Positions 7,246-40,667 of a stretch of 64,000 nt of DNA are shown one piece after another (the stretch's first letter is position 1; every line of letters starts with the position of its first letter). Under the pieces are notes generated by a model that saw nothing but the letters and a program-made list of their open reading frames with translations, had not been told where the DNA came from and searched no databases. This stretch comes from Ignavibacteriota bacterium (GTDB taxonomy: Bacteria > Bacteroidota > Ignavibacteria > Ignavibacteriales > Melioribacteraceae). The translations under genes and the position numbers were made by a program. The stretch spans positions 1 to 64,000 of the forward strand of contig JABFGH010000022.1 of the NCBI GenBank assembly GCA_013112585.1. Direction: 5' to 3'.

Positions 7246-7938
7246 ATGAATAAAATAACACATGGTATCTTTTTAGTTTTTACACTATTCCAAATGTTTT
7301 CCACAAGCAGAGTTGATGCACAATATTTAAATTCCAAATCGAATAAAATGCCGCTCAGTTTTATGAGCAGTCAATTTTGGCAGAATGATTCAACCAATGA
7401 GACTGTTTTACTTTCGTCAAATTTCTCACTCGGGTTTTCGAGAGTGTTTCATAAATTTGGTATTGGATTGTTGATGGGCTCGGTTGGCGGATTTGGTCTG
7501 GGATATTTGGGAGCTGCTGCTTATCATGTTATTAGTGATAGTAAGGATTTGTCCGGTCTTGGAGTTGGGATTATTGGGGCTTCATTAGGTTTTGTATTAT
7601 TTTCATCATTGGGCGTAACAATAGTCTCCGATATTTATGAACAGGATACTTCCTATGGGATTGTTCTTGTCGGAGGTTTAGCAGGAATAGTTTCTGGAAC
7701 AACACTAGGTTATTTAGTTCAAAAATCATTTACCAATAAAAATGAATTGCCCATTTTTATTGGTGCAGTAGTAGGGCTCTTTGCAGGTGAAATTATTTTA
7801 TCTGAAATAGAATTTCCGGATTGGGATGAATATGAAAAGGATAAAGAAATTCAAGCAGATGTAAACGATCTTACATTTCACGAATATGTAAAAAGTACTC
7901 AGGTAATTAATTTTGAACTGTTAAGAATTCAACTTTGA
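7246..7938 (+). CDS. Hypothetical membrane protein with glycine-zipper helices
   Basis: 230 residues. The N-terminus is a signal peptide ending near residue 26 (SRVDAQ). Residues about 65-190 hold four or five hydrophobic, glycine-rich helices (for example GLLMGSVGGFGLGYLGAA), as in small integral membrane or glycine-zipper proteins. The C-terminal 40 residues are charged and soluble. I recognise no catalytic motif. The ATG follows GGATGTGAGGG, a plausible ribosome site. It stands alone between a terminator and the peptidase gene, both on the same strand. Confidence 0.65.
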   Translation: MNKITHGIFLVFTLFQMFSTSRVDAQYLNSKSNKMPLSFMSSQFWQNDSTNETVLLSSNFSLGFSRVFHKFGIGLLMGSVGGFGLGYLGAAAYHVISDSKDLSGLGVGIIGASLGFVLFSSLGVTIVSDIYEQDTSYGIVLVGGLAGIVSGTTLGYLVQKSFTNKNELPIFIGAVVGLFAGEIILSEIEFPDWDEYEKDKEIQADVNDLTFHEYVKSTQVINFELLRIQL

Positions 7939-8043
7939 TAAATAATATTTGAATTTAAAACACCTTTCGCTTTGTAATTCCTTTTTACTAATTTAGCAGC
8001 AATTAATTATTTAATAAGTCATAAATAGAGCGAAAGAAAGAAC

Positions 8044-11345: not shown

Positions 11346-11891
11346 TTACTTCAGCAGTATCATCTTCTTAACTTCAATAAATTTATCAGCTTGAATTCTA
11401 TAAATGTAAAATCCGGATGAGAGTAAACCGGCATCAAAATTAACTTTGTAGTACCCCGGCGTTTTAACTTCATTTACTAAAGTCACTAACTTTTCACCAA
11501 GTATATTAAATACTTCGAGTAGTACTTTCGATTCTTGAGGAACCGCAAACTCAATAACTGTAGAGGGATTAAAGGGGTTGGGATAATTTTGCTGCATCTC
11601 AAATATCTCTGGTATCAATGAGTTCACAGATTTTACATCAGTAATTATCGGCTGCTGCGTATAAAGAAAACCGAAGAATGATTTGTAAGAAGCATTAGCA
11701 GAAATCCCTATCATGCTTTCGCCAACTGAGCTTCTTATTTTATGTGTTCCGCCATTTGCAACACTCGCACCGTTGATTATTGAACTTCTTTCAATCTTAT
11801 ACTGAGCTGTTAGTTCAGCTTTAGAAAATACCAATAAAAAACCAATTGAGAGCAGCGTTAATAGATATCTATTTTTCATTTGGCTCTCCAT
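11346..11891 (-). CDS. Small secreted protein with T9SS type A sorting domain
   Basis: 181 residues. A signal peptide (about 1-29, ending LTAQ) is followed by a short mature region of about 65 residues and then a T9SS C-terminal sorting domain (about 100-181). The domain is recognised from QQNYPNPFNPSTVIEF, the GEKLVTLVNE segment and the ending KMILLK. This cargo tag directs export across the outer membrane and surface attachment or release. The segment IINGASVANGGTHKIRSSVG resembles a short repeat seen in other T9SS cargo of this group. It overlaps the end of the upstream gene by 23 bp, so the two are co-transcribed. Confidence 0.8.
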   Translation of the reverse strand: MESQMKNRYLLTLLSIGFLLVFSKAELTAQYKIERSSIINGASVANGGTHKIRSSVGESMIGISANASYKSFFGFLYTQQPIITDVKSVNSLIPEIFEMQQNYPNPFNPSTVIEFAVPQESKVLLEVFNILGEKLVTLVNEVKTPGYYKVNFDAGLLSSGFYIYRIQADKFIEVKKMILLK

Positions 11892-22000: not shown

Positions 22001-22610
22001 AGTTTATATTAGAACCGGTGAATATGACAATGGTCAAGTAGGTGAAATATTTATTGATATGCATAAAGAAGGTGCCGCTTTCAGAAGCCTGCTCAACTGT
22101 TTTGCAATTTCAATATCACTCGGCTTGCAGCATGGAGTTCCGCTTGAAGAATTTGTTGATGCATTTGTGTTTACAAGGTTTGAACCGAGCGGAGTGGTTA
22201 CCGGTCATGATAAAATAAAAATGTCAACATCTGTTATCGATTATATATTTAGAGAGATGGCTGTTGCTTACCTTGGTAGAAATGATCTATCGCATGTAGA
22301 TACAACACAGGAAAACACATCGAGACCCCAGAAGAGTGTTAAACTGGTTGAACCCGACTATGAAAGTGAAGAATTAGTTAGCGAAAGGATGATTGAGTTA
22401 GATTCTAAAAAGCATAAAATAAAAACTCAATCAAACTCAAACGGAAACGGTGCAAAAAGGAAAGTTGACGAAAAACAGAAGCAGCTCCAAGAAGCCAGAT
22501 TTAGAGGCTACACCGGGGATATTTGTCCGGAGTGCCAAAGTATGACAATGGTACGGAATGGTACATGCCTTAAATGTACAACATGCGGTTCAACAACCGG
22601 ATGCAGTTAA
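19041..22610 (+). CDS. nrdJ: Adenosylcobalamin-dependent (class II) ribonucleotide reductase
   Basis: 1189 residues. It contains the RNR block [14 protein letters not shown], the redox cysteine in HACFIQSV, the [15 protein letters not shown] loop, and the NPCSEY motif with [12 protein letters not shown]. It ends in a zinc-ribbon-like tail ([20 protein letters not shown]) that serves as the redox-active C-terminus in the large B12-type enzymes. It reduces ribonucleotides to deoxyribonucleotides using coenzyme B12 and needs no oxygen, as expected for an anaerobe or facultative organism. The ribosome site AAAGGAGAA precedes the ATG. I see no intein: the length and domain order are those of the family. 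Confidence 0.95.
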
Positions 22611-28583: not shown

Positions 28584-29429
28584 ATGCCTAAAAAAACTAA
28601 TAAAAAAACAAAAGTAAAAAAATCTTCGGTAAAAGCAGCTCCTAAAAAGGCAGCTAAAAAGAAGTCAGTAAAAAAAGCAGCTCCTAAAAAAGTTGTTAAA
28701 AAATCAACTGCTAAAAAAACAGCCGTTAAAAAAGCAGCTCCTAAAAAAACTGTAAAAAAGAAAACCGTAAAAAAAGCGGCAGCTAAAAAAACAGTTAAAA
28801 AGGCAGCAGTTAAAAAATCGGCACCAAAAAAAGTAACTACTAAAAAGTCTGCATCTGCAAAGAGCAGTAAAACTACTAAATCTAAACCGTCCACTAAAGT
28901 GAAGAAAACAGTGAGTACAAAAAAATCACCGGCTGCAAAAACGACGAAAAAAACTTCCGCAAAAGCAGCTAAGCAGAAAGAAGTTGAAGTTATTTCACCA
29001 TCAAAAAAAGTAAAGAAAATTAAAGGTTACAACAAAGCCGATCTTGAAAAATTCAAACAAGTTATTTTAGATAAAAGAGAAGAGATAATCGAACAGCTTC
29101 AGAACCTAAAAGACCAGATGATGGACCCAACTACCGGGCAGTATGTTAATGAAAGTTCTCCATATTCATTGCATATGGCTGAGCAGGGAACGGATGCACA
29201 AGAAAGAGAAAAGCTGTACCTCTGGGCACAGAGAGCAAATAAATTTTTAGGTTACCTTGAAGATGCGCTGCAGCGAATTGAAAGTGGTACCTACGGTATT
29301 TGCATTGACTGTATCGATGAACCGAAAAATCTATGCCCCACTTGTCCGTTAGTACCTAAGGATAGACTAATGGCAGTACCGCATACGCAGCATTGCCTGC
29401 AAGTAAAACAGACAATGAGAAAAAGTTAA
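28584..29429 (+). CDS. TraR/DksA zinc-finger protein with long lysine-rich (histone H1-like) tail
   Basis: 281 residues in two parts. Residues 1 to about 145 are alanine/lysine/proline repeats (KKAAPKK, KKTVKK, KKSA) like histone H1 and bacterial HctB-type proteins. Residues about 150-281 are a TraR/DksA domain with a coiled coil (KRAEEIIEQLQ-like), the tip sequence EQGTDAQEREK, and a zinc finger beginning GTYGICIDC. The finger is unusual: C-x2-C-x7-C-x2-C (CIDC ... CPTC), with a single later cysteine in QHC instead of the usual second pair. The tail should bind DNA or RNA polymerase-bound nucleic acid. It follows ileS by 25 bp with the ribosome site GGAGG. Confidence 0.85.
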   Translation: MPKKTNKKTKVKKSSVKAAPKKAAKKKSVKKAAPKKVVKKSTAKKTAVKKAAPKKTVKKKTVKKAAAKKTVKKAAVKKSAPKKVTTKKSASAKSSKTTKSKPSTKVKKTVSTKKSPAAKTTKKTSAKAAKQKEVEVISPSKKVKKIKGYNKADLEKFKQVILDKREEIIEQLQNLKDQMMDPTTGQYVNESSPYSLHMAEQGTDAQEREKLYLWAQRANKFLGYLEDALQRIESGTYGICIDCIDEPKNLCPTCPLVPKDRLMAVPHTQHCLQVKQTMRKS

Positions 29430-31987: not shown

Positions 31988-33535
31988 TTATTTCATTAAG
32001 AGCATTTTCTTTGTTTGAACAAAGTTTTTAGTCTCTAATTTGTAGAAGTAAATTCCGGAAGCTAAATTTTCGGCATTCCATGTTACCTCGTAAGAGCCTG
32101 CGTTATTATTTCCATCAACCAATACATCAATTGTTTTACCAAGAGCATCAAAAACTGTAAGCGTTACATCGGCAGTTTCAGTTAATGTAAACTTAATTTT
32201 TGTTGATGGGTTGAATGGGTTAGGATAATTTTGATCTAATGAATAAGTGAATACAGGTGCATCATCATATTCAACATCAGTTGGTGAGAAATTAGCAATA
32301 GCATCAATCAGCAAGTCTTGAACCAATTTTGTATTGTGAATACCATGACTGCCTTCAGCCTCAACAGCAAGCAAATTGTATCTCGCTTGTTTGAAAGCAT
32401 CGGTTAGTGAATCAGCAGAAGAAGCATCAGCTAATTTACCTGCTAAAACATTTAATAAACTATCAGTTGTTGTTTGAGCGCCGTAGAGGTCAAATTTTGT
32501 AGCTGCTGAAGAAGTATCAACAGCGGAATAATAAGCTTCACCGTGGCATTCGGCTCTTGCACATGATTCAATAGTAGGTTCAAAAGTATGACCTGTAACT
32601 GCAATTTCGCCGTCATAAGGAATCATATTTACGTGACAGTCAATACATCTTTCAGTTGCAACAAAAGTATGCGGTGAATTTTGATAAGTTTGACCGGGAT
32701 ACTGATAACCGAAGTTTTCAGCGCCGCTTAATGCTTCACTTGTTGTGTGATGAGGTTCATCATTTACATCAACAACATCTTCATGAACTGTATGACAAAC
32801 ATCGCAAATAACTTCTGCAGTACCTACGGGAACTCTTAAGTTACCAGGATTATCATTTCCATGAGGATCATGGCAGGCTGCACAATCGATAAATTCGTTG
32901 TTTGCTAAATCACCTTCAGGTACAAATGTAGCACCGTTATAATTTTCATCCGTTAAAAATGCAACAAAGTCCTGTGTAAAGTGGCAATATGCACAGCTTC
33001 CGCCGGCAAAGTCTCTTGTAAGCCAAGCAGGTGCACCGCTTGCGTGTCCGGATGCTTCCCATTCAGCCATGTATGGGTGATGTGAACCTTCGTGGCAAAC
33101 TCCGCAATTAGATGATTTAAAATCAGTCGTACTTCCGATATGGCCCATGTCGAGAGTATTTTCGGCGCTTCCAACCGGTCCGTGGCAAGATTCGCATTGA
33201 ACGTTTTTAACTAAATCCCATCTTGTTTGGTCTGTAATTGTCCAGTCAGGTGTTGAACCTGCATTTTCAGTTACAAATTCGTCAGCACCGCCATTTACTG
33301 TTGCCGGGTCCCAGCCTGTGTTGTGGCATCCTAAACAGCTATAGCTTAAAAATGAAATTGAATCCTGTGCAATTGCATGACCGGTTGCTTCCCATGCTGT
33401 AACTAATGAGCCATGGCATCCTGAACAAGTTGGGTTAATGTTATTATTATAAACACCAATATACCAGCCTTGACCAAATGTATATGATCCTGCAAGAATA
33501 AAGCAAATTAGAAAAAGTTTGATTTTTGTTAACAT
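31988..33535 (-). CDS. Secreted multiheme c-type cytochrome with T9SS sorting domain
   Basis: 515 residues: signal peptide (about 1-21), a heme-rich region (37-331), a helical spacer and a T9SS type A sorting domain (about 435-515: NQNYPNPFNPSTKIKF to KKMLLMK). There are eight CXXCH sites, with first cysteines at 37, 67, 114, 144, 181, 218, 244 and 297. One CX4CH (C325-C330-H331) is a spacing known from cytochrome c3. The predicted product is an outer-surface electron carrier. The function (for example extracellular electron transfer or nitrogen/sulfur oxyanion reduction) is inferred only. A -24/-12 promoter and an activator-like site lie upstream. Confidence 0.88.
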   Translation of the reverse strand: MLTKIKLFLICFILAGSYTFGQGWYIGVYNNNINPTCSGCHGSLVTAWEATGHAIAQDSISFLSYSCLGCHNTGWDPATVNGGADEFVTENAGSTPDWTITDQTRWDLVKNVQCESCHGPVGSAENTLDMGHIGSTTDFKSSNCGVCHEGSHHPYMAEWEASGHASGAPAWLTRDFAGGSCAYCHFTQDFVAFLTDENYNGATFVPEGDLANNEFIDCAACHDPHGNDNPGNLRVPVGTAEVICDVCHTVHEDVVDVNDEPHHTTSEALSGAENFGYQYPGQTYQNSPHTFVATERCIDCHVNMIPYDGEIAVTGHTFEPTIESCARAECHGEAYYSAVDTSSAATKFDLYGAQTTTDSLLNVLAGKLADASSADSLTDAFKQARYNLLAVEAEGSHGIHNTKLVQDLLIDAIANFSPTDVEYDDAPVFTYSLDQNYPNPFNPSTKIKFTLTETADVTLTVFDALGKTIDVLVDGNNNAGSYEVTWNAENLASGIYFYKLETKNFVQTKKMLLMK

Positions 33536-33598: not shown

Positions 33599-33615
33599 AT
33601 GCAAAATAGATGCCG
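33599..33615 (-). promoter_or_regulatory. Predicted sigma54 (-24/-12) promoter of the 515-residue cytochrome
   Basis: On the minus strand the sequence reads CGGCATCTATTTTGCAT. GG and GC are separated by exactly ten bases, with TTGC at -12, against the consensus TGGCACG-N4-TTGC. The predicted start of transcription is about 55 bp before the ATG. Confidence 0.72.
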
Positions 33616-33769
33616 AAAAACATCTAAATTATAATTATTTATTGAAATAATAATTTTAGAAAAATGTTTGGATTATGGAGTAAAAACGAATAAAACAAAT
33701 TTTCTTAAAAATTCAATCTATTTGGAAGAATTCAAATTCAACGGGTGAGAAATTAAAACAGGGACATGG

Positions 33770-33786
33770 TTGTCACAGTGTGACAC
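33770..33786. promoter_or_regulatory. Predicted upstream activator site (palindrome TGTCACA-G-TGTGACA)
   Basis: A perfect 7-bp inverted repeat, TGTCACA-G-TGTGACA (33771-33785), lies about 160-185 bp upstream of the -24/-12 promoter. It shares TTGTCACAGTG-type sequence (15 of 17 bases) with the site at 37261-37277. Confidence 0.65.
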
Positions 33787-33834
33787 TTGGTGGACAATGG
33801 AGAGAATATATCTGCGGGTAAAGATGAGTTAAAA

Positions 33835-34209
33835 TTAATTGTAAATTGACTTTTGAAGTGCTTTTATTGATTCTTCCATACTTATTAACGAAATTGGTTT
33901 TAATGCCTTAAAGTGAATACCAATCTGACTAAGGTCTCTTCCAAGTTCTATTGAAAGCTCGGATGTTACTAAAATTATCGATACTCTCGAATCAATTTTT
34001 CTAAGTGATTTTAAAATTTTTACAGTTTCATTCTCAATAAAATCATTATCAAAAATGATCAAGGAAGGATTATTTGAGATTATTTCAGATAGAATTTCGC
34101 ATGAATCGGATGCTGAATTAAAAATAATTAATTGCTCATTAATAATTGAGTCAATATTATTTATCGTTTTAATAACGTCCTTATCATTTGAAATTAATAT
34201 TATCTTCAT
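33835..34209 (-). CDS. Stand-alone response-regulator receiver domain
   Basis: 124 residues, a receiver-like (CheY) fold. The phospho-acceptor is D54 in LIIFDND, with T82 in LVTSE and K104 in ALKP, in the right positions. The acidic pocket reads N8-D9 rather than the usual D-D. There is no output domain. It lies 71 bp after the large cytochrome gene, but a strong terminator stands between them, so expression would need readthrough or its own promoter. Its partner kinase could be the one at 37356, but this is not shown. Confidence 0.7.
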   Translation of the reverse strand: MKIILISNDKDVIKTINNIDSIINEQLIIFNSASDSCEILSEIISNNPSLIIFDNDFIENETVKILKSLRKIDSRVSIILVTSELSIELGRDLSQIGIHFKALKPISLISMEESIKALQKSIYN

Positions 34210-34234: not shown

Positions 34235-34270
34235 AAAAAAAAGGGGGACTGCTTATAATTAAGCAGTCCC
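34235..34270 (-). terminator. Strong terminator after the 913-residue cytochrome gene
   Basis: On the minus strand GGGACTGCTTA-ATTA-TAAGCAGTCCC is an 11-bp perfect stem followed by CCTTTTTTTT. It starts 11 bp after the cytochrome stop. Confidence 0.9.
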
Positions 34271-34280
34271 TAATTAGCTA

Positions 34281-37022
34281 TTACTTGAGCAATAACATTT
34301 TATGTGTCTGAATAAATGATCCTGATTCAAGTCTGTAGAAATAAATACCAGAAGCCATACTCGAAGCATTCCATGTGAAATTGTAATATCCTGCACTCAT
34401 TTCACGATCAACAAGAACTGCAATTTCCTGTCCGGTAATATCAAACACTGTAAGTCTTACGTTAGAGACTTCCGGAATTGCAAATTTGATCATAGTAGAT
34501 GGATTAAATGGGTTAGGATAATTTTGATTCAATGCATATTCTGTCGGAGTACCGTTTTCAAATCCAACATCAGTAAGAGTAGCTGATGCTTCATTTGAAA
34601 ATCCGCTAATGTTGTTTGAAAAATCGACTGAAGTAACTACGTAATAGTATTTAATATCATTCAAAACACTATTATCATCAAAAGTATAATCGATTGTTGT
34701 AGCAATAATATCAGAAGTGGTAGGAACAAATCCTGCAGTTTCACTTCGATAAATTTCATAATATTTGAAATCATCTTCAAGTGATTCTTCCCAAGTTAAT
34801 TGAATACCGACACCGGTTCCAGACGCAGTTAAATTAGCCGGAACTGCAGGTGCTAGGTCATCAGTTGAGTAACCGCTCATTGGATCTGTTTCGGCGATTA
34901 TTCCCATTTCAGTTTTACCAAGAACTTTGAAGGTAGTCCATACTGTATCGCCTTCAACTGTGTTATATAGAGTTGGAACAACAGCACTATATTCAAGAAA
35001 TTGAACTGCCGGAACTTCTGCAACTATATCCCATAATGTTCCTTCAAGCTTTAGCGGTGTTCCTACTGAAATATCAGCGGGTATTTCCTTTAATGAAGAA
35101 TAGTCGGTAATACCTTTATTAGCTGAAGTACCAGCTACCTTACGCAATACTACATATGATTCTACTTGGTCAGGAGCAACTCCGTCATCAGCACCAAATG
35201 CAGTCCATACAGTACGAACCTGGAATCCTTGATCCATTGGAATATCAGTAACACTAACCATATTTCCGGCTGTGATAGCGCCATACTTCATTGACTCGAT
35301 TGCAACTTGTAACATTGCAACTGTGAATGCAGGATTGTGGATACCAAAACTTCTATCTTCTTCAACGAAGACATAAGCATACTTGGCTCTCATAAATGTT
35401 GGAGATAAGGATGTATCGGCATCCAATAGAGTTTCAAGATGCTCAAGCATTCCATGAACTTCATCTTGCAGACCTTCATCAATACCATCACCATCATGAT
35501 CAGCTATGCTGTTCTGATAATATTTTTTCTCTTTAAATGTTGTACCAACATCACCATGGCAAGGCTCACAAGCTGCAACATGATCAACACCATTTACGTC
35601 ATTCATATTAAAAGAGTGACCTCCAACTAAAATTACATTGCCATCAGCATCAAAGCCGCTATTTTCTGCATACATATGGCAGTCAACGCAGGCATCTCCA
35701 CCGGCAACATCATGCGGTGAACTTGGTAGATCGTAGGGCCAGTCAGGGTAATTTGCACCAATTAACATATCTGCCTGCGGACCATGATGCGGACCATAGT
35801 GAGGTGAGGTAGAAGGAGTGGATGCATATTCTTTAGCATAACGACGACTTCTATGGCATTCCATACATTGAGCGCCAGTTCCGTATAACTCAACAGTTAC
35901 CGGAGTGCCGTCACCAAGTTGAGTATCTGATAATCTCAACTGATAAGGTTCTGTAGCATCATGAGGGTCATGGCATACCGGGCAAGAAATGTTTACTGCT
36001 TCAGGCAATTCTTCAGTACCGGTTGGTAAACCAAGAGAGTTGGTTGGTTTTCCTTCCTTATCCCATTGGATATAACCTAGACCGCTATGGCAAGGTGCAC
36101 AACTGCCTCTTCCGCCGGCATAAGTGACAAAAGCACCAACAGCATGTCCGCCATCAAATCCGCGTCCATCAAAATATGTTGCATCTTGACCGGAGGCTAA
36201 CCACTGTGATGGGAAATAATGATGTGTTCCATTGTCTTCATGGCAAACAGCACAATTATTTACATCTATACTGGAAATCATTTTCGAATCGGAAACTGCC
36301 CCATTATGCTCACTTCCGGGACCATGACAAGCTTCGCACTGAACATCTGCTCTTGCCATTGCATCAGGGTATTCGAGTGTTAAACTATCATACATTCCCA
36401 TCATAAAAGTATCCGGGAACATAAATGGAAAGTCATCAAAACCATCATTATCAGCACTTGGATAATAACCGGTAGCATGGCATTCTAAGCAAGATTCGCC
36501 AAAGTGACTGCTGCTTCCAGGTAATGCGTCAAATTGTTTTTTGGTTGCTACTGCATGTTCTGTTTCCACAAAATTACTAGCATAATCACTGTGGCACATC
36601 ATACAATTAGGTGTTCCACTTTCCATGCCCAAATATAAACCGGCGTTTATGGTAAGTGTATCAGCCATACCTGCTTCAGTAAAAATAACAACGTAAGTAC
36701 CAATAACATCCGGGGTTAATATTGTAACTTCTTTTGAAGTATCAATAACAGTTGGAGCACTGATTGCAGCAGTTGATGTAGCAGGTTTTGAATCTAAAGT
36801 CCAAGTTGTACCTGTTAGGGTTTCACTTGAACTTCCAATTAAATACATTTGTGTTTCAATCCCAACATTTGTCGCTCCATTGTATCGCAGGTCAAAAATA
36901 TCAGTAGAATCCTCTGCAACTTGACGAGGATTAACTCCATATGTACCAACGGTGACTGTTTGGGCTAACATTGTCCCGCTTATTAGTAAGAAGGCAATTA
37001 TTAGTTGTGAAAGTTTTTTCAT
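34281..37022 (-). CDS. Large secreted nonaheme cytochrome with FN3-like and T9SS sorting domains
   Basis: 913 residues. A signal peptide (about 1-20) is followed by a beta-rich Ig-like region (about 22-130). Nine CXXCH motifs follow, from C140 (CMMCH) through CLECH, CEACH, CAVCH, CAPCH, CPVCH, CMECH, CVDCH to CEPCH near residue 485. A helical region and a fibronectin III-like domain follow (about 735-825, LTWEESLEDDFKYYEIYRS). A T9SS sorting domain (NQNYPNPFNPSTMIKF) ends at KMLLLK. It should be carried by T9SS to the cell surface. An electron-transfer or reductase role is likely; the substrate is unknown. It has its own -24/-12 promoter. Confidence 0.88.
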   Translation of the reverse strand: MKKLSQLIIAFLLISGTMLAQTVTVGTYGVNPRQVAEDSTDIFDLRYNGATNVGIETQMYLIGSSSETLTGTTWTLDSKPATSTAAISAPTVIDTSKEVTILTPDVIGTYVVIFTEAGMADTLTINAGLYLGMESGTPNCMMCHSDYASNFVETEHAVATKKQFDALPGSSSHFGESCLECHATGYYPSADNDGFDDFPFMFPDTFMMGMYDSLTLEYPDAMARADVQCEACHGPGSEHNGAVSDSKMISSIDVNNCAVCHEDNGTHHYFPSQWLASGQDATYFDGRGFDGGHAVGAFVTYAGGRGSCAPCHSGLGYIQWDKEGKPTNSLGLPTGTEELPEAVNISCPVCHDPHDATEPYQLRLSDTQLGDGTPVTVELYGTGAQCMECHRSRRYAKEYASTPSTSPHYGPHHGPQADMLIGANYPDWPYDLPSSPHDVAGGDACVDCHMYAENSGFDADGNVILVGGHSFNMNDVNGVDHVAACEPCHGDVGTTFKEKKYYQNSIADHDGDGIDEGLQDEVHGMLEHLETLLDADTSLSPTFMRAKYAYVFVEEDRSFGIHNPAFTVAMLQVAIESMKYGAITAGNMVSVTDIPMDQGFQVRTVWTAFGADDGVAPDQVESYVVLRKVAGTSANKGITDYSSLKEIPADISVGTPLKLEGTLWDIVAEVPAVQFLEYSAVVPTLYNTVEGDTVWTTFKVLGKTEMGIIAETDPMSGYSTDDLAPAVPANLTASGTGVGIQLTWEESLEDDFKYYEIYRSETAGFVPTTSDIIATTIDYTFDDNSVLNDIKYYYVVTSVDFSNNISGFSNEASATLTDVGFENGTPTEYALNQNYPNPFNPSTMIKFAIPEVSNVRLTVFDITGQEIAVLVDREMSAGYYNFTWNASSMASGIYFYRLESGSFIQTHKMLLLK

Positions 37023-37108: not shown

Positions 37109-37125
37109 GGCAATTGACATGCCAA
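37109..37125 (-). promoter_or_regulatory. Predicted sigma54 (-24/-12) promoter of the 913-residue cytochrome
   Basis: On the minus strand the sequence reads TTGGCATGTCAATTGCC, with GG and GC separated by exactly ten bases and a strong TGGCATG/TTGC match to the TGGCACG-N4-TTGC consensus. It lies about 87 bp upstream of the ATG at 37022. Confidence 0.78.
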
Positions 37126-37260
37126 ATAAGAGCTTATTATATTATTATTCATTATGTCTTTTTATAATGCATATTTAGACTAAAAACTAACTTTATTTAG
37201 AAATTATTTTGAGAAGGATATTCATTTATCCTTTGAAATAAAAATTTTACTATGTATTTT

Positions 37261-37290
37261 GCGTCCCACTGTGACAAACTTGCGACAGTG
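37261..37290. promoter_or_regulatory. Predicted activator site shared with 33770-33786
   Basis: GCGTCCCACTGTGACAA (37261-37277) is, on the minus strand, TTGTCACAGTGGGACGC, matching 15 of 17 bases of the 33770 site. A second, inverted half site TTGCGACAGTG lies at 37280-37290, giving CACTGT...ACAGTG. It is about 140-180 bp upstream of the cytochrome promoter, and also 66-95 bp upstream of the kinase start, so it could serve both. Confidence 0.62.
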
Positions 37291-37355: not shown

Positions 37356-38828
37356 ATGCTTAACTCCGTAAAAACCAAATTCATATTTTTTTCTACACTT
37401 TTTATAGTATTAAGTGTGGGCATACCTACCTTGTTTTTAATAAATCAATTAGATGAAAATTTTAATGAGCGATCATTACTAATGCTAAATGCCACTTTGG
37501 ATATCCTTGATCACAGCATTGATCATGAAATGAAACTCGGTTACAAAAAAGATATTCAAACAATGATAAGTGAAGTATCATCAAATGAAGCGATTGATCA
37601 CGTAAGAATTATGAACGATGAGGGGTTCATAACATATTCAAGTCAACTTAATGAAATAGGTAAACATATTAATTTAGTTTCACCGCATCACATTCATTTT
37701 AATCTACAAAAATTGAATCACCGGCATATTGATTTATTTAGTGAAAGCAACATTTATTCTGCAATTGAACCGATCTTTAATAAACCCGAATGCCGAACGT
37801 GCCACGATGATGAAAAAGTTATTGCTTACTTAGATGTAGATACAGACCTTACCAAGGCTGAAGTAAAATTTCAAACCGGTTCACTCCATATTCTTTTTCT
37901 TGCGGCGGTAATTATTTTAATTATGCTTGGCGGGTTATATTTAATTTTTAATCAACTTATTAACAAACCTCTCAACAAATTTTTATTCGCCTTTACCGAT
38001 GTTGGTCAGGGTAAATTAGATACACAGCTTAACATTAAAAATGAAGGTGAAATAGGAACGCTGGCAAAAAATTTTAATCTGATGGTTAAACAGCTTAGGC
38101 AATCAAAAGATGAAATTGATGAATTGCACTTCAAACAGTTGATGCATGCTGATAGACTAACAACAATTGGCGAAATGACCTCGCAGTTAGCACATGAAAT
38201 TAATAATCATACAGGAATAATTTTATCGCGTGCGGATTATATTCAGCTTGAAGCCGCTGTTGACCCAAATTTAAGTAAAATTAAAGATGACCTTGATGTG
38301 ATTTCAAATCAGATTGAAAAAGTTTCTACAGTTACTCGTCATATACTTAGGCACAGCAAATTAAATTCAGTGGAGTTTAAAAATATAGACTTAAAAAAAA
38401 TATCTAAAAATGCTATTAATACTTTACAGCCCGTGCTGAAGAAAAAAGATATTAATATTATTACTGACTATACAGATGACAGTACTATTATTTTCGGCGA
38501 TGCATATCAATTGGAACAGGTATTTGTAAACTTAATAAACAACGCTTCAGATTCTATAATAAAAAAGGGTGAAGTAAAAATTTCAATCAATAAAGATAAT
38601 GGGAAAATAAAAATTATTGTAACGGATAACGGCGGCGGTATTACACCAGAATTACTCGATCAAATTTTTCATCCTTTTTTTACAACTAAGGAAGGTGACA
38701 AAGGAACCGGCTTAGGATTGTACATCATTAAAAATATTATTGAACACCACAAGGGGAGTATAAAGTGTGAAAGTTTAGTAGGCAGAGGAACAAAATTTAT
38801 AATTTTGTTAAAAGGTGTAGATGATTAA
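37356..38828 (+). CDS. Sensor histidine kinase with a periplasmic c-type heme motif
   Basis: 490 residues. Membrane helices at about 9-29 and 178-200 enclose a periplasmic domain that contains CXXCH: C146-R-T-C149-H150 (PECRTCHDDEK). A HAMP-like linker (about 201-250) leads to HisKA with H280 in QLAHEINNHTG, then an ATPase domain with NLINNASDSI, TDNGGG and GTGLGLYI. The c-type motif in a sensor domain suggests that a covalently bound heme reads redox state or a gas such as NO or CO. It overlaps the NtrC-type gene by eight bases and faces the cytochrome genes divergently. The signal itself is not known. Confidence 0.85.
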   Translation: MLNSVKTKFIFFSTLFIVLSVGIPTLFLINQLDENFNERSLLMLNATLDILDHSIDHEMKLGYKKDIQTMISEVSSNEAIDHVRIMNDEGFITYSSQLNEIGKHINLVSPHHIHFNLQKLNHRHIDLFSESNIYSAIEPIFNKPECRTCHDDEKVIAYLDVDTDLTKAEVKFQTGSLHILFLAAVIILIMLGGLYLIFNQLINKPLNKFLFAFTDVGQGKLDTQLNIKNEGEIGTLAKNFNLMVKQLRQSKDEIDELHFKQLMHADRLTTIGEMTSQLAHEINNHTGIILSRADYIQLEAAVDPNLSKIKDDLDVISNQIEKVSTVTRHILRHSKLNSVEFKNIDLKKISKNAINTLQPVLKKKDINIITDYTDDSTIIFGDAYQLEQVFVNLINNASDSIIKKGEVKISINKDNGKIKIIVTDNGGGITPELLDQIFHPFFTTKEGDKGTGLGLYIIKNIIEHHKGSIKCESLVGRGTKFIILLKGVDD

Positions 38829-40200
38829 TAAAAAGAAAATCTTGATTATAGATGATGAATTTGAAATGCTTACCAGTATTGAGAAAATTTTGAATTTAAA
38901 GGAGAGTTATTCAGTAATTGCAAAACAAAATTCTAAAGATGCAATCAAACTTATAAAATCCGAAAAGTTCGATTTAATTATTACAGACTTAAAAATGAAG
39001 GACTTTGACGGTATTGAAATATTAAAAACAGCAAGGGATAGTTTTTCCGATTCAAAAGTAATTGTAATTTCGGGGTACGGAACTGTAGAGGCAAGCGTTG
39101 AGGCAATGCGTAAGGGAGCTTTTGATTTTATTGAAAAACCTTTTACTTCTGCAAAGCTTTATGAATGTGTTTCGCGTGCATTAAATGAAAATGATGAATC
39201 AGCAGAAAAAACAGTTGATGATAATGATGCGAAAAGTTTTGAAGGTATTATTTATAATAGTATTGAATTGGAAAGAGTAATTCAGCTGGTAAAAAAAATT
39301 GCACCGGGCAATATGAATATTTTAATAACAGGCGAAAGTGGAACCGGAAAAGAAATGTTTGCAAGAGCAATTCATAATATTAGTAAAGGCAGCGTTGACC
39401 CGTTTGTTGCCGTTAACTGCGGTGCACTGCCTGAACATCTTTTTGAAAGCGAGTTGTTCGGACACGAGAAAGGAGCATTTACAGGTGCAATTAAAACAAA
39501 ACCGGGATTATTAGAATTTGCAAATAATGGTACTTTCTTTTTTGATGAAATTGCTGAAATGAGTGAGGCGCTGCAGGTAAAACTTTTACGCATGCTAGAA
39601 GATAGAAAAATAAGAAGAGTAGGCGGGCAGAAGGAAATTGAAATAAACGTTAGAATTATTGCGGCAACAAATAAAGATTTACTTCAAGCGGTTAATGAAA
39701 ATAAGTTTAGAGAAGATTTATACTACCGGCTAAATACGCTTAATGTGCACATTCCGCCGCTAAGGGAGCGCAAAGCTGATATATTAACACTTACAAAATT
39801 TTATTTAAATCAATTGTGCGAAAATTCAGATGGTACCAAAAAGATTTTATCAAAAGAGGCAGTTGAAGCCATTGAAAACTATTCATGGGCTGGCAATGTG
39901 CGTGAACTGAGTAACTTAATAAGCAGAGCTTACTTTTTATGTAATTCTGAAATAATTTCTGTTGATGATTTACCGCTTCCGCATAGCGATAAAATTGGAA
40001 AGATAAATGAAAAGACACTTCAGATGAATTATAAAGATGCGCGCAATACTGTTCTTGAAAAGTTTGAAATTGAATACCTTACATACCACCTAAGAAAAAA
40101 TAATGGAAATATATCAAAAACGGCTGCAGAGTGCGGAATAGATAGGAGATCGATTCACAGACTGCTGAACAAATACAATATTATTTACAAAAATACTTAA
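38821..40200 (+). CDS. NtrC-family sigma54-dependent response regulator
   Basis: 459 residues. The receiver domain has D11-D12 and phospho-acceptor D56 (LIITDLKMK). The AAA+ domain has Walker A GESGTGKE (171-178), the sigma54-contacting GAFTGA loop (218-223) and Walker B FFDEIAEM (240-247). A C-terminal Fis-type HTH (about 415-455, NNGNISKTAAECGIDRRSI) binds DNA. It should be phosphorylated by the overlapping heme-motif kinase and activate sigma54 promoters. The three -24/-12 matches within 7 kb are its natural candidates. The target sites are proposed from repeated sequence, not shown experimentally. Confidence 0.93.
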   Translation: MINKKKILIIDDEFEMLTSIEKILNLKESYSVIAKQNSKDAIKLIKSEKFDLIITDLKMKDFDGIEILKTARDSFSDSKVIVISGYGTVEASVEAMRKGAFDFIEKPFTSAKLYECVSRALNENDESAEKTVDDNDAKSFEGIIYNSIELERVIQLVKKIAPGNMNILITGESGTGKEMFARAIHNISKGSVDPFVAVNCGALPEHLFESELFGHEKGAFTGAIKTKPGLLEFANNGTFFFDEIAEMSEALQVKLLRMLEDRKIRRVGGQKEIEINVRIIAATNKDLLQAVNENKFREDLYYRLNTLNVHIPPLRERKADILTLTKFYLNQLCENSDGTKKILSKEAVEAIENYSWAGNVRELSNLISRAYFLCNSEIISVDDLPLPHSDKIGKINEKTLQMNYKDARNTVLEKFEIEYLTYHLRKNNGNISKTAAECGIDRRSIHRLLNKYNIIYKNT

Positions 40201-40353: not shown

Positions 40354-40370
40354 ATGCAACGCAAGTGCCA
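40354..40370 (-). promoter_or_regulatory. Predicted sigma54 (-24/-12) promoter of the microprotein
   Basis: On the minus strand the sequence reads TGGCACTTGCGTTGCAT. It matches TGGCAC and TTGCA exactly with ten bases between GG and GC, the best sigma54 match in the window. No copy of the TGTCACA activator site was found within about 150 bp upstream. The remaining DNA up to cysS (40371-40667) is AT-rich with no gene. Confidence 0.75.
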
Positions 40371-40667
40371 AAAAGAATGTTCAAAATTTAGCCGGTATTC
40401 AAGTGTTCAAAAAACTATTTATGTTTCAATATGAAATTTTGTTTTGAATTAAATCAGCTTAATAAACAGATTTATCCGTGAACTGATACATTAAAATAAT
40501 ACTATTTTAATATTTAGCAATAAAATAAAGACTAACTAGTATAAATTAAAATTCAATTTTATTTATTAAATTATTATTTTAGTAATTTGAAACTGTAATC
40601 TTTTAATGCTATTTGTTAACACTGTTTAGCTAAGTAGTTATAAACAAATAACTAAACCGGAATTTAG

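Follow-up and report, generated by a model that had tools for sequence, protein, structure and literature searches.

The 64,000-nucleotide stretch of DNA analysed here, which we refer to as the window, contains a sensor-regulator pair next to genes for multiheme cytochromes. The pair is encoded on the plus strand and consists of a histidine kinase (37356-38828), with one CXXCH motif in a PAS/Cache-like extracytoplasmic domain, and an NtrC-type response regulator (38821-40200) with a receiver (PF00072), a sigma-54 AAA+ domain (PF00158) and a Fis-type helix-turn-helix (PF02954). The GAFTGA motif is present in the regulator translation, and the regulator has at least 43 matches in its own genome. 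The minus strand encodes a 913-amino acid cytochrome with 9 CXXCH motifs and a T9SS tail (34281-37022), a 124-amino acid stand-alone receiver-like protein (33835-34209), for which the Pfam score of 28.5 bits was just below the cut-off of 30.2 bits, and a 515-amino acid cytochrome with 8 CXXCH motifs and a T9SS tail (31988-33535). A terminator-like hairpin with a T8 tail (34245-34270, minus strand) is located between the genes for the 9-heme cytochrome and the receiver. It was also noted that the plus strand at 28584-29429 encodes a protein with a Lys/Ala-rich, histone H1-like N-terminus and, as judged by eye, a DksA/TraR-type zinc-finger C-terminus.

The residues C146, C149 and H150 of the kinase CXXCH motif were invariant in all 12 sequences compared. 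The predicted structure of the kinase (mean pLDDT 82.6, pTM 0.55) was PAS/Cache-like, with WalK as the best fold match and the Geobacter proteins GSU0935 (PDB 3b42) and GSU0582 (PDB 3b47) also among the fold matches. The best profile matches were to the membrane/HAMP segments of NarQ and others, and positions 51-152, which include the CXXCH motif, matched GSU0935 (E = 0.00079) and GSU0582 (E = 0.024). The kinase domain thus matches the two Geobacter proteins by both fold and profile, although these are chemotaxis receptors and the best matches of the kinase are found elsewhere. We take the periplasmic sensor domains of GSU0935 and GSU0582 to bind heme c. Residues 149-427 of the 8-heme cytochrome aligned to OcwA of Thermincola (PDB 6I5B; E = 5.5e-8), which is described as a cell-surface nonaheme reductase that also reduces nitrite (PMC6703420), and the 9-heme cytochrome matched OcwA over 43 residues only. 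The similarity of the 8-heme protein to OcwA is weak, and the 2 proteins differ in that the window protein has a T9SS tail and 8 motifs, as compared to 9 hemes in OcwA. The output of the system could plausibly be electron transfer out of the cell or the reduction of nitrogen oxides.

The earlier note on this DNA drew attention to two 17-mers, TTGTCACAGTGTGACAC at 33770-33786 on the plus strand and TTGTCACAGTGGGACGC at 37261-37277 on the minus strand, located upstream of the 8-heme and 9-heme cytochrome genes, respectively, and read them as a shared NtrC-type activator site. The identity of 15 of 17 bases was reproduced exactly. The segment at 33771-33785 is a perfect palindrome of 7+1+7 bases with 3 G/C per arm; the window contains 4 such palindromes, with 0 to 1 G/C per arm in the other three. 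In A/T-rich DNA, the similarity of 15 of 17 bases is by itself weak evidence: the best 17-mer match between the two intergenic regions reached 15 or more in 56 of 300 shuffles, and the best unrestricted match was not the operator pair, but another, A/T-rich pair with 16 of 17 identical bases. With at least 6 G/C demanded in each 17-mer, the operator pair was the best match and none of the 300 shuffles reached 15.

The same note had seen no other copy in the window, which agrees with our search: the next matches, at 22533 and 53024, contained 3 mismatches each, and the number of loose matches was at the chance level (4 found versus 2.2 expected, and 4 or more in 17 of 100 shuffles). A motif search of the whole genome had been proposed, with many random copies as the outcome that would speak against the site. 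In the assembly searched (G000; 4,942,932 bases, 99.97% complete), the core was nearly unique, with a single occurrence of TGTCACAGTGTGACA in the 4.94 Mb, and with TGTCACANTGTGACA at 1 exact place and at 3 places with up to 2 mismatches. Up to 3 mismatches gave 65 places, as compared to 95 for the backwards control, and the loose genome matches are therefore noise. TGTCNCANTGNGACA with at most 1 mismatch was found at 3 places, versus 4 for the control, namely the 2 window sites (33771-33785 and 37262-37276) and C2:190952. The last was rejected as a third site: by eye it is located inside an open frame, and its array score, as defined below, was 3.3, as compared to 22.4 to 35.8 for 12 leave-one-out sites.

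Each window core sits in a half-site array of about 37 bp on the minus strand. Array 1 (37251-37287), located upstream of both the 9-heme cytochrome gene and the divergent kinase gene, contains the core at 37262-37276 and a half site at 37281-37287. This half site had been described as inverted, but it repeats the promoter-distal arm in direct orientation at a distance of exactly 11 bp (TGTCGCA followed by TGTCACA); the promoter-proximal side of Array 1 is without a clear half site. Array 2 (33760-33796), upstream of the 8-heme cytochrome gene, contains the core at 33771-33785, flanked on both sides by half sites at 33790-33796 (TGTCCAC) and 33760-33766 (TGTCCCT), as read on the minus strand. 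In a gap-free alignment of the sites from the window and its relatives, the core TGTCNCA-N-TGNGACA at position 0 is preceded at -11 by a TGTCNCA-like half site and followed at +19 by a second half site, which is the least regular part of the array. The outer half sites are symmetric around the core centre.

Downstream of the window arrays are the -24/-12 promoter matches TCGGCATCTATTTTGCA (33600-33616, minus strand, predicted start at about 33589) and TTGGCATGTCAATTGCC (37109-37125, minus strand, predicted start at about 37098), and none of 200 shuffles reached either score. The upstream position of the palindromes, which the earlier note had placed about 140 to 185 bp before the promoters, is retained, while the distance from the palindrome centre to the predicted start is corrected to 189 bp for the 33771 site and 171 bp for the 37262 site. 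A sigma-54 gene is present in the same genome on C29 (PF04552, one match, E = 1.3e-58). For a total of 16 arrays from the window and its relatives (see below), L062 included, we took the best -24/-12 match between the array and the first gene. Such a match was found downstream of all 16, with the array centre at -142 to -191 relative to the predicted start. Twelve of these promoters scored higher than all 200 shuffles, and the 4 weaker ones were reached by 2 (G019), 5 (G012), 6 (L100) and 3 (G149 C103) of the 200 shuffles. GG at -24 was present in 16 of 16 promoters and GC at -12 in 11; both window promoters have the 2 elements, and GC was missing in G019, G012, L100 and both G149 promoters.

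We also noted a perfect TTGGCACTTGCGTTGCA at 40355-40371 on the minus strand, which is 1 of 4 exact TTGGCAY-N5-TTGCW sites genome-wide and faces a small membrane-like ORF (about 38 amino acids) that is convergent with the regulator gene. No array was found upstream of this site. That it represents a relic cytochrome promoter, like the one on C103 in G149 described below, was considered and dropped, since homology in the alignment was confined to cysS and the sequence immediately preceding it.

The regulator was searched for in 38 genomes, its own included, and in genome contigs. Eleven loci outside the window, with regulators of 52% to 63% identity, were examined: L062, L063, L064 and L069 from records named Melioribacteraceae, L060 and L065 from Bacteroidetes, L061 from Calditrichaceae, L100 from Calditrichota, as well as L047, L048 and L051. 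Several of these genomes carry a second label, namely G019 (L060), G004 (L063), G008 (L065), G012 (L069), G087 (L064) and G020 (L051). A palindrome scan with up to 3 mismatches was positive in the divergent intergenic region of 7 of the 11 loci (L060, L047, L048, L063, L065, L061 and L100), with a second match in L061 before the receiver gene at about 5170; the sites in L069, L062 and L064 were picked by eye. An array adjoins the kinase-regulator pair at each ortholog locus that has one. No array was found in L051/G020, despite a 52% ortholog and a CXXCH kinase, and no cytochrome gene adjoins the pair in this locus.

The site in L062 has a 16-bp core and was excluded from all models and from the alignment of 15 sites. 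Mean pairwise identity among the aligned sites peaked at 0.70 and was 0.60 across positions -11 to +25, as compared to 0.29 to 0.35 in 15-base segments clear of the array in the same 15 sites. The alignment of related species that the earlier note had suggested thus gave a positive answer: the core is kept at orthologous loci, and the array is kept in relatives from the Melioribacteraceae and Calditrichota, while the flanking DNA has diverged. The genes are split between contigs in G149. One array is found on contig C26, together with the genes for the 8-heme cytochrome, the receiver, the kinase and the regulator. The 9-heme cytochrome gene is on C103, where it has a separate array and a -24/-12-like site and is located beside a gene labelled cysS-like by its similarity to the neighbour gene in the window. 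The array thus travels with the cytochrome, which fits what a trans-acting regulon requires.

A few additional observations were made at these and more distant loci. The regulator gene in L069 (9998-11361) is apparently broken, with a TGA and a TAA stop within the match, and the array, kinase, receiver and 9-heme cytochrome are retained. L066, a Caldithrix record with a 47% identical regulator and a kinase frame that looks split, had a strong array before an 8-heme cytochrome (11396-11432, score 33.8) and another, less strong, in front of a receiver-like ORF (about 7929-7965, score 17.6). The regulator in L061 was 63% identical, slightly above the values in the window's own family (52% to 61%), which hints at a transfer of the locus between phyla. 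A protein of about 500 amino acids with 6 CXXCH motifs, possibly an inner-membrane electron donor, recurs near the locus in L063, L064, L061, L100, L069 and L165. At loci with regulators of 42% to 47% identity (L067, L068, L091, L071, L072 and L055 to L059), the best full-matrix scores were 3.9 to 14.8, and no array is claimed; clustered GTGGGACATTAATGTCACA-like words at about 18149-18204 in L071, where the regulator is 43% identical, perhaps represent a related type of operator.

To score the arrays, we used a 37-column matrix in a leave-one-out design in which, for a genome with two sites, both were withheld at the same time. The true site obtained rank 1 or 2 in 12 of 12 cases (rank 1 in 8) among 25,732 to 127,928 positions. 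Where the rank was 2, the site was outscored by the other site of the same genome (win_HK and Cald61_2) or was apparently placed behind the same site on the opposite strand (G004 and L064). The model of all 12 sites, R1, is partly circular, since the training sites were hand-chosen, and by eye at the L069, L062 and L064 loci. Among 22 family genomes, 7 were matched by R1 at E ≤ 1, and every match was at the regulator locus. Among 296 phylum genomes, to which stricter filters were applied, 7 genomes matched at E ≤ 0.05. Of these, G000, G009, G019 and G087 were in the training set, G098 and G149 were new, and G114 had a single weak match (E = 0.03). In G098 and G149 the array was found first and the regulator ortholog was shown afterwards (59% and 58% identity, respectively). 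No regulator ortholog was found at E ≤ 1e-110 in G114 and 7 further family genomes, and the match in G114, which is inside an ORF, was rejected. Also rejected was an exact core match in G002, where the best regulator match was 39% and the array had an E-value of 0.64 with the model R3, and a match in L070 (score 19.7) inside a cytochrome ORF was not counted.

Two models addressed other sets of sites. R2 was built without the window's sites, and all 4 of its matches in G000 at E ≤ 5 were the 2 window sites on both strands (best E-values 0.028 and 0.52), the 37262 site being recovered only at E 0.5 to 1.3. It gave one off-locus match in G149 (E = 0.81) and no match in G020. R3 was built from the sites of 6 relatives and run on 29 family genomes outside its building set. 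At E ≤ 0.3, it matched 7 of 7 genomes with the locus (G000, G004, G008, G012, G014, G098 and G149) and none of the 22 others, among them G020. With the limit relaxed to E ≤ 2, three genomes that lack the ortholog also matched (G002, G007 and G204; E 0.64 to 0.98), off-locus matches were obtained in G014 and G012 (E 1.2 to 1.3), and in G000 the 33771 site alone was found and the 37262 site was missed. The genome searches score part of the first-look candidates (150 of 355, for example), and weak sites may therefore be missed. Within these searches, the presence of the array tracks that of the regulator ortholog together with the cytochromes.

The first gene behind 12 of the 16 promoters encodes the stand-alone receiver, and in all 12 the gap between the -12 element and the ATG is 12 to 14 nucleotides, so that the predicted leader is only 1 to 3 nucleotides. 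This implies that the predicted mRNA is leaderless in the receiver-first relatives. The start codon was set by alignment, in which all 11 sequences share Met1 and the first strand begins directly after it. In the same 11 sequences D54, D56, T82, S83 and P105 were invariant and K104 was conserved in at least 90%, and the protein profile matched receivers (best E = 7.3e-7). The gap was 28 to 95 nucleotides in the 4 promoters where a cytochrome gene is first, the value of 28 resting on an uncertain start. In most relatives the receiver gene is first, but in the window it is located behind the terminator-like hairpin, and the receiver gene of the window falls outside the leaderless pattern. Leaderless genes are known from elsewhere (PMC5243855, PMC3616915), and no title matching a leaderless sigma-54 arrangement was seen among our literature search results, which were judged mostly from titles. 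The chances seem to us about even that the sigma-54 promoter is fused to the receiver start codon in such a way that a heme c kinase makes its own feedback receiver, a sink or relay, from a leaderless mRNA, together with electron-export cytochromes.

In our preferred reading, to which we give a probability of about 0.87, the NtrC-type regulator encoded at 38821-40200 binds an upstream activating sequence with the palindrome as its core, and would in this way control the multiheme cytochromes. The earlier note had proposed one NtrC-type activator site common to two -24/-12 promoters, and this proposal is supported by the rarity of the core, its conservation, the neighbouring regulator gene, the sigma-54 gene and the co-occurrence of array and regulator. 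With at least 43 regulator matches in the same genome, the array could instead serve one of the NtrC-type paralogs, another sigma-54 activator, with the neighbouring regulator acting elsewhere. This is improbable, as R3 at E ≤ 0.3 matched all 7 held-out genomes with the locus and none of the 22 others, the array is missing from related genomes that have dozens of paralogs and lack the ortholog, and it adjoins the kinase-regulator pair wherever the ortholog locus has one (L051/G020 having none). The array core is located 30 to 174 nucleotides from the kinase start codon in 9 loci, as would be expected if its main role were autorepression of the kinase-regulator operon, with the cytochrome promoters as bystanders. 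We consider this very unlikely given the second arrays that precede cytochrome or receiver units at a distance from the kinase gene (33771 in the window, about 5170 in L061, and C103 in G149) and the constrained spacing of -142 to -191 to the -24/-12 match.

The TGTCA and TGACA arms also resemble operators of the CRP/FNR/CooA type, which are even-spaced inverted repeats with N6 between 5-bp arms. The odd 15-bp core with a single base at its centre, present in all 15 aligned sites (the 16-bp core of L062 is outside the alignment), departs from the even N6 spacing, the flanking half sites are in an 11-bp register, and operators of this family are not usually located 142 to 191 bp before the start; an operator of this type therefore has little to recommend it. 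The least probable explanation, which we regard as close to negligible, is an RNA hairpin, a terminator or a chance palindrome. The palindrome is indeed perfect and 56 of 300 shuffles attain a similarity of 15 of 17 bases, but no T run follows it, it is absent from the terminator scan, the 37262 copy has no upstream gene to terminate, and the core is conserved in relatives.

If the palindrome is the core of an activating sequence for the neighbouring regulator, the system may work as follows. The kinase would use a covalently bound heme c to detect changes in redox state or ligand outside the inner membrane, and would phosphorylate the regulator, dimers of which would bind the central inverted repeat and the half sites one helical turn away, so that an AAA+ ring could assemble. 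A DNA loop over about 140 to 190 bp would bring the array to the promoter, and ATP hydrolysis would allow the sigma-54 polymerase to open at the -24/-12 promoters, leading to synthesis of the multiheme cytochromes. In the relatives, the same promoter would usually open with the stand-alone receiver, made from a leaderless message and probably part of a feedback loop or a phosphate sink. Where the core is only 30 to 58 nucleotides from the kinase start codon (L063, L060, L065 and L048), it must be on or beside the kinase promoter, from which we infer that binding probably also restrains the kinase-regulator operon, as a form of negative autoregulation.

Classical upstream activating sequences of the NtrC type are odd-length palindromes well upstream of a -24/-12 promoter, bound by regulators with receiver, AAA+ and Fis-type helix-turn-helix domains. 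The window arrays differ from these in consensus and in the combination of a central inverted repeat with half sites at 11-bp steps. The system seems best paralleled by DVU3142 of Desulfovibrio, which regulates the octaheme cytochrome operon ohcBAC (Kazakov 2015, PMC4641369). There too, a sigma-54 enhancer-binding regulator is divergent from a multiheme c-type cytochrome operon, and sites and sigma-54 promoters were predicted by comparative genomics, but the cytochrome system and the phylum are different, and the section on DVU3142 mentions no CXXCH kinase or receiver gene (PMC4641369). The likeness concerns the gene arrangement, as that section does not print the site sequence (PMC4641369). 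The closest printed motif that we met is the DVU2894/FlrA-type inverted repeat yGTCA-N6-TGACr, which also belongs to a sigma-54 activator and has GTCA/TGAC arms, but has N6 rather than the N5 of the perfect window site, a flagellar context and, in the section concerned, no mention of 11-bp half sites (PMC4641369). An identical motif was not printed in the sections considered of PMC4641369 or PMC3333781. A literature text search with the motif words gave nothing relevant among the matches listed, and no publication on this cytochrome switch was brought up by our text searches at the level of listings.

Most likely, then, the system in the window joins the known enhancer-dependent regulons of the sigma-54/NtrC type, with the apparently leaderless receiver gene in the relatives as its unusual trait. 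The analysis points to a single sensor-regulator pair that probably switches on secreted multiheme cytochromes in the Ignavibacteria and Calditrichota. The array would provide a searchable signature by which targets of the regulator may be predicted, and the putative leaderless sigma-54 promoter of the receiver gene represents a sharp prediction.
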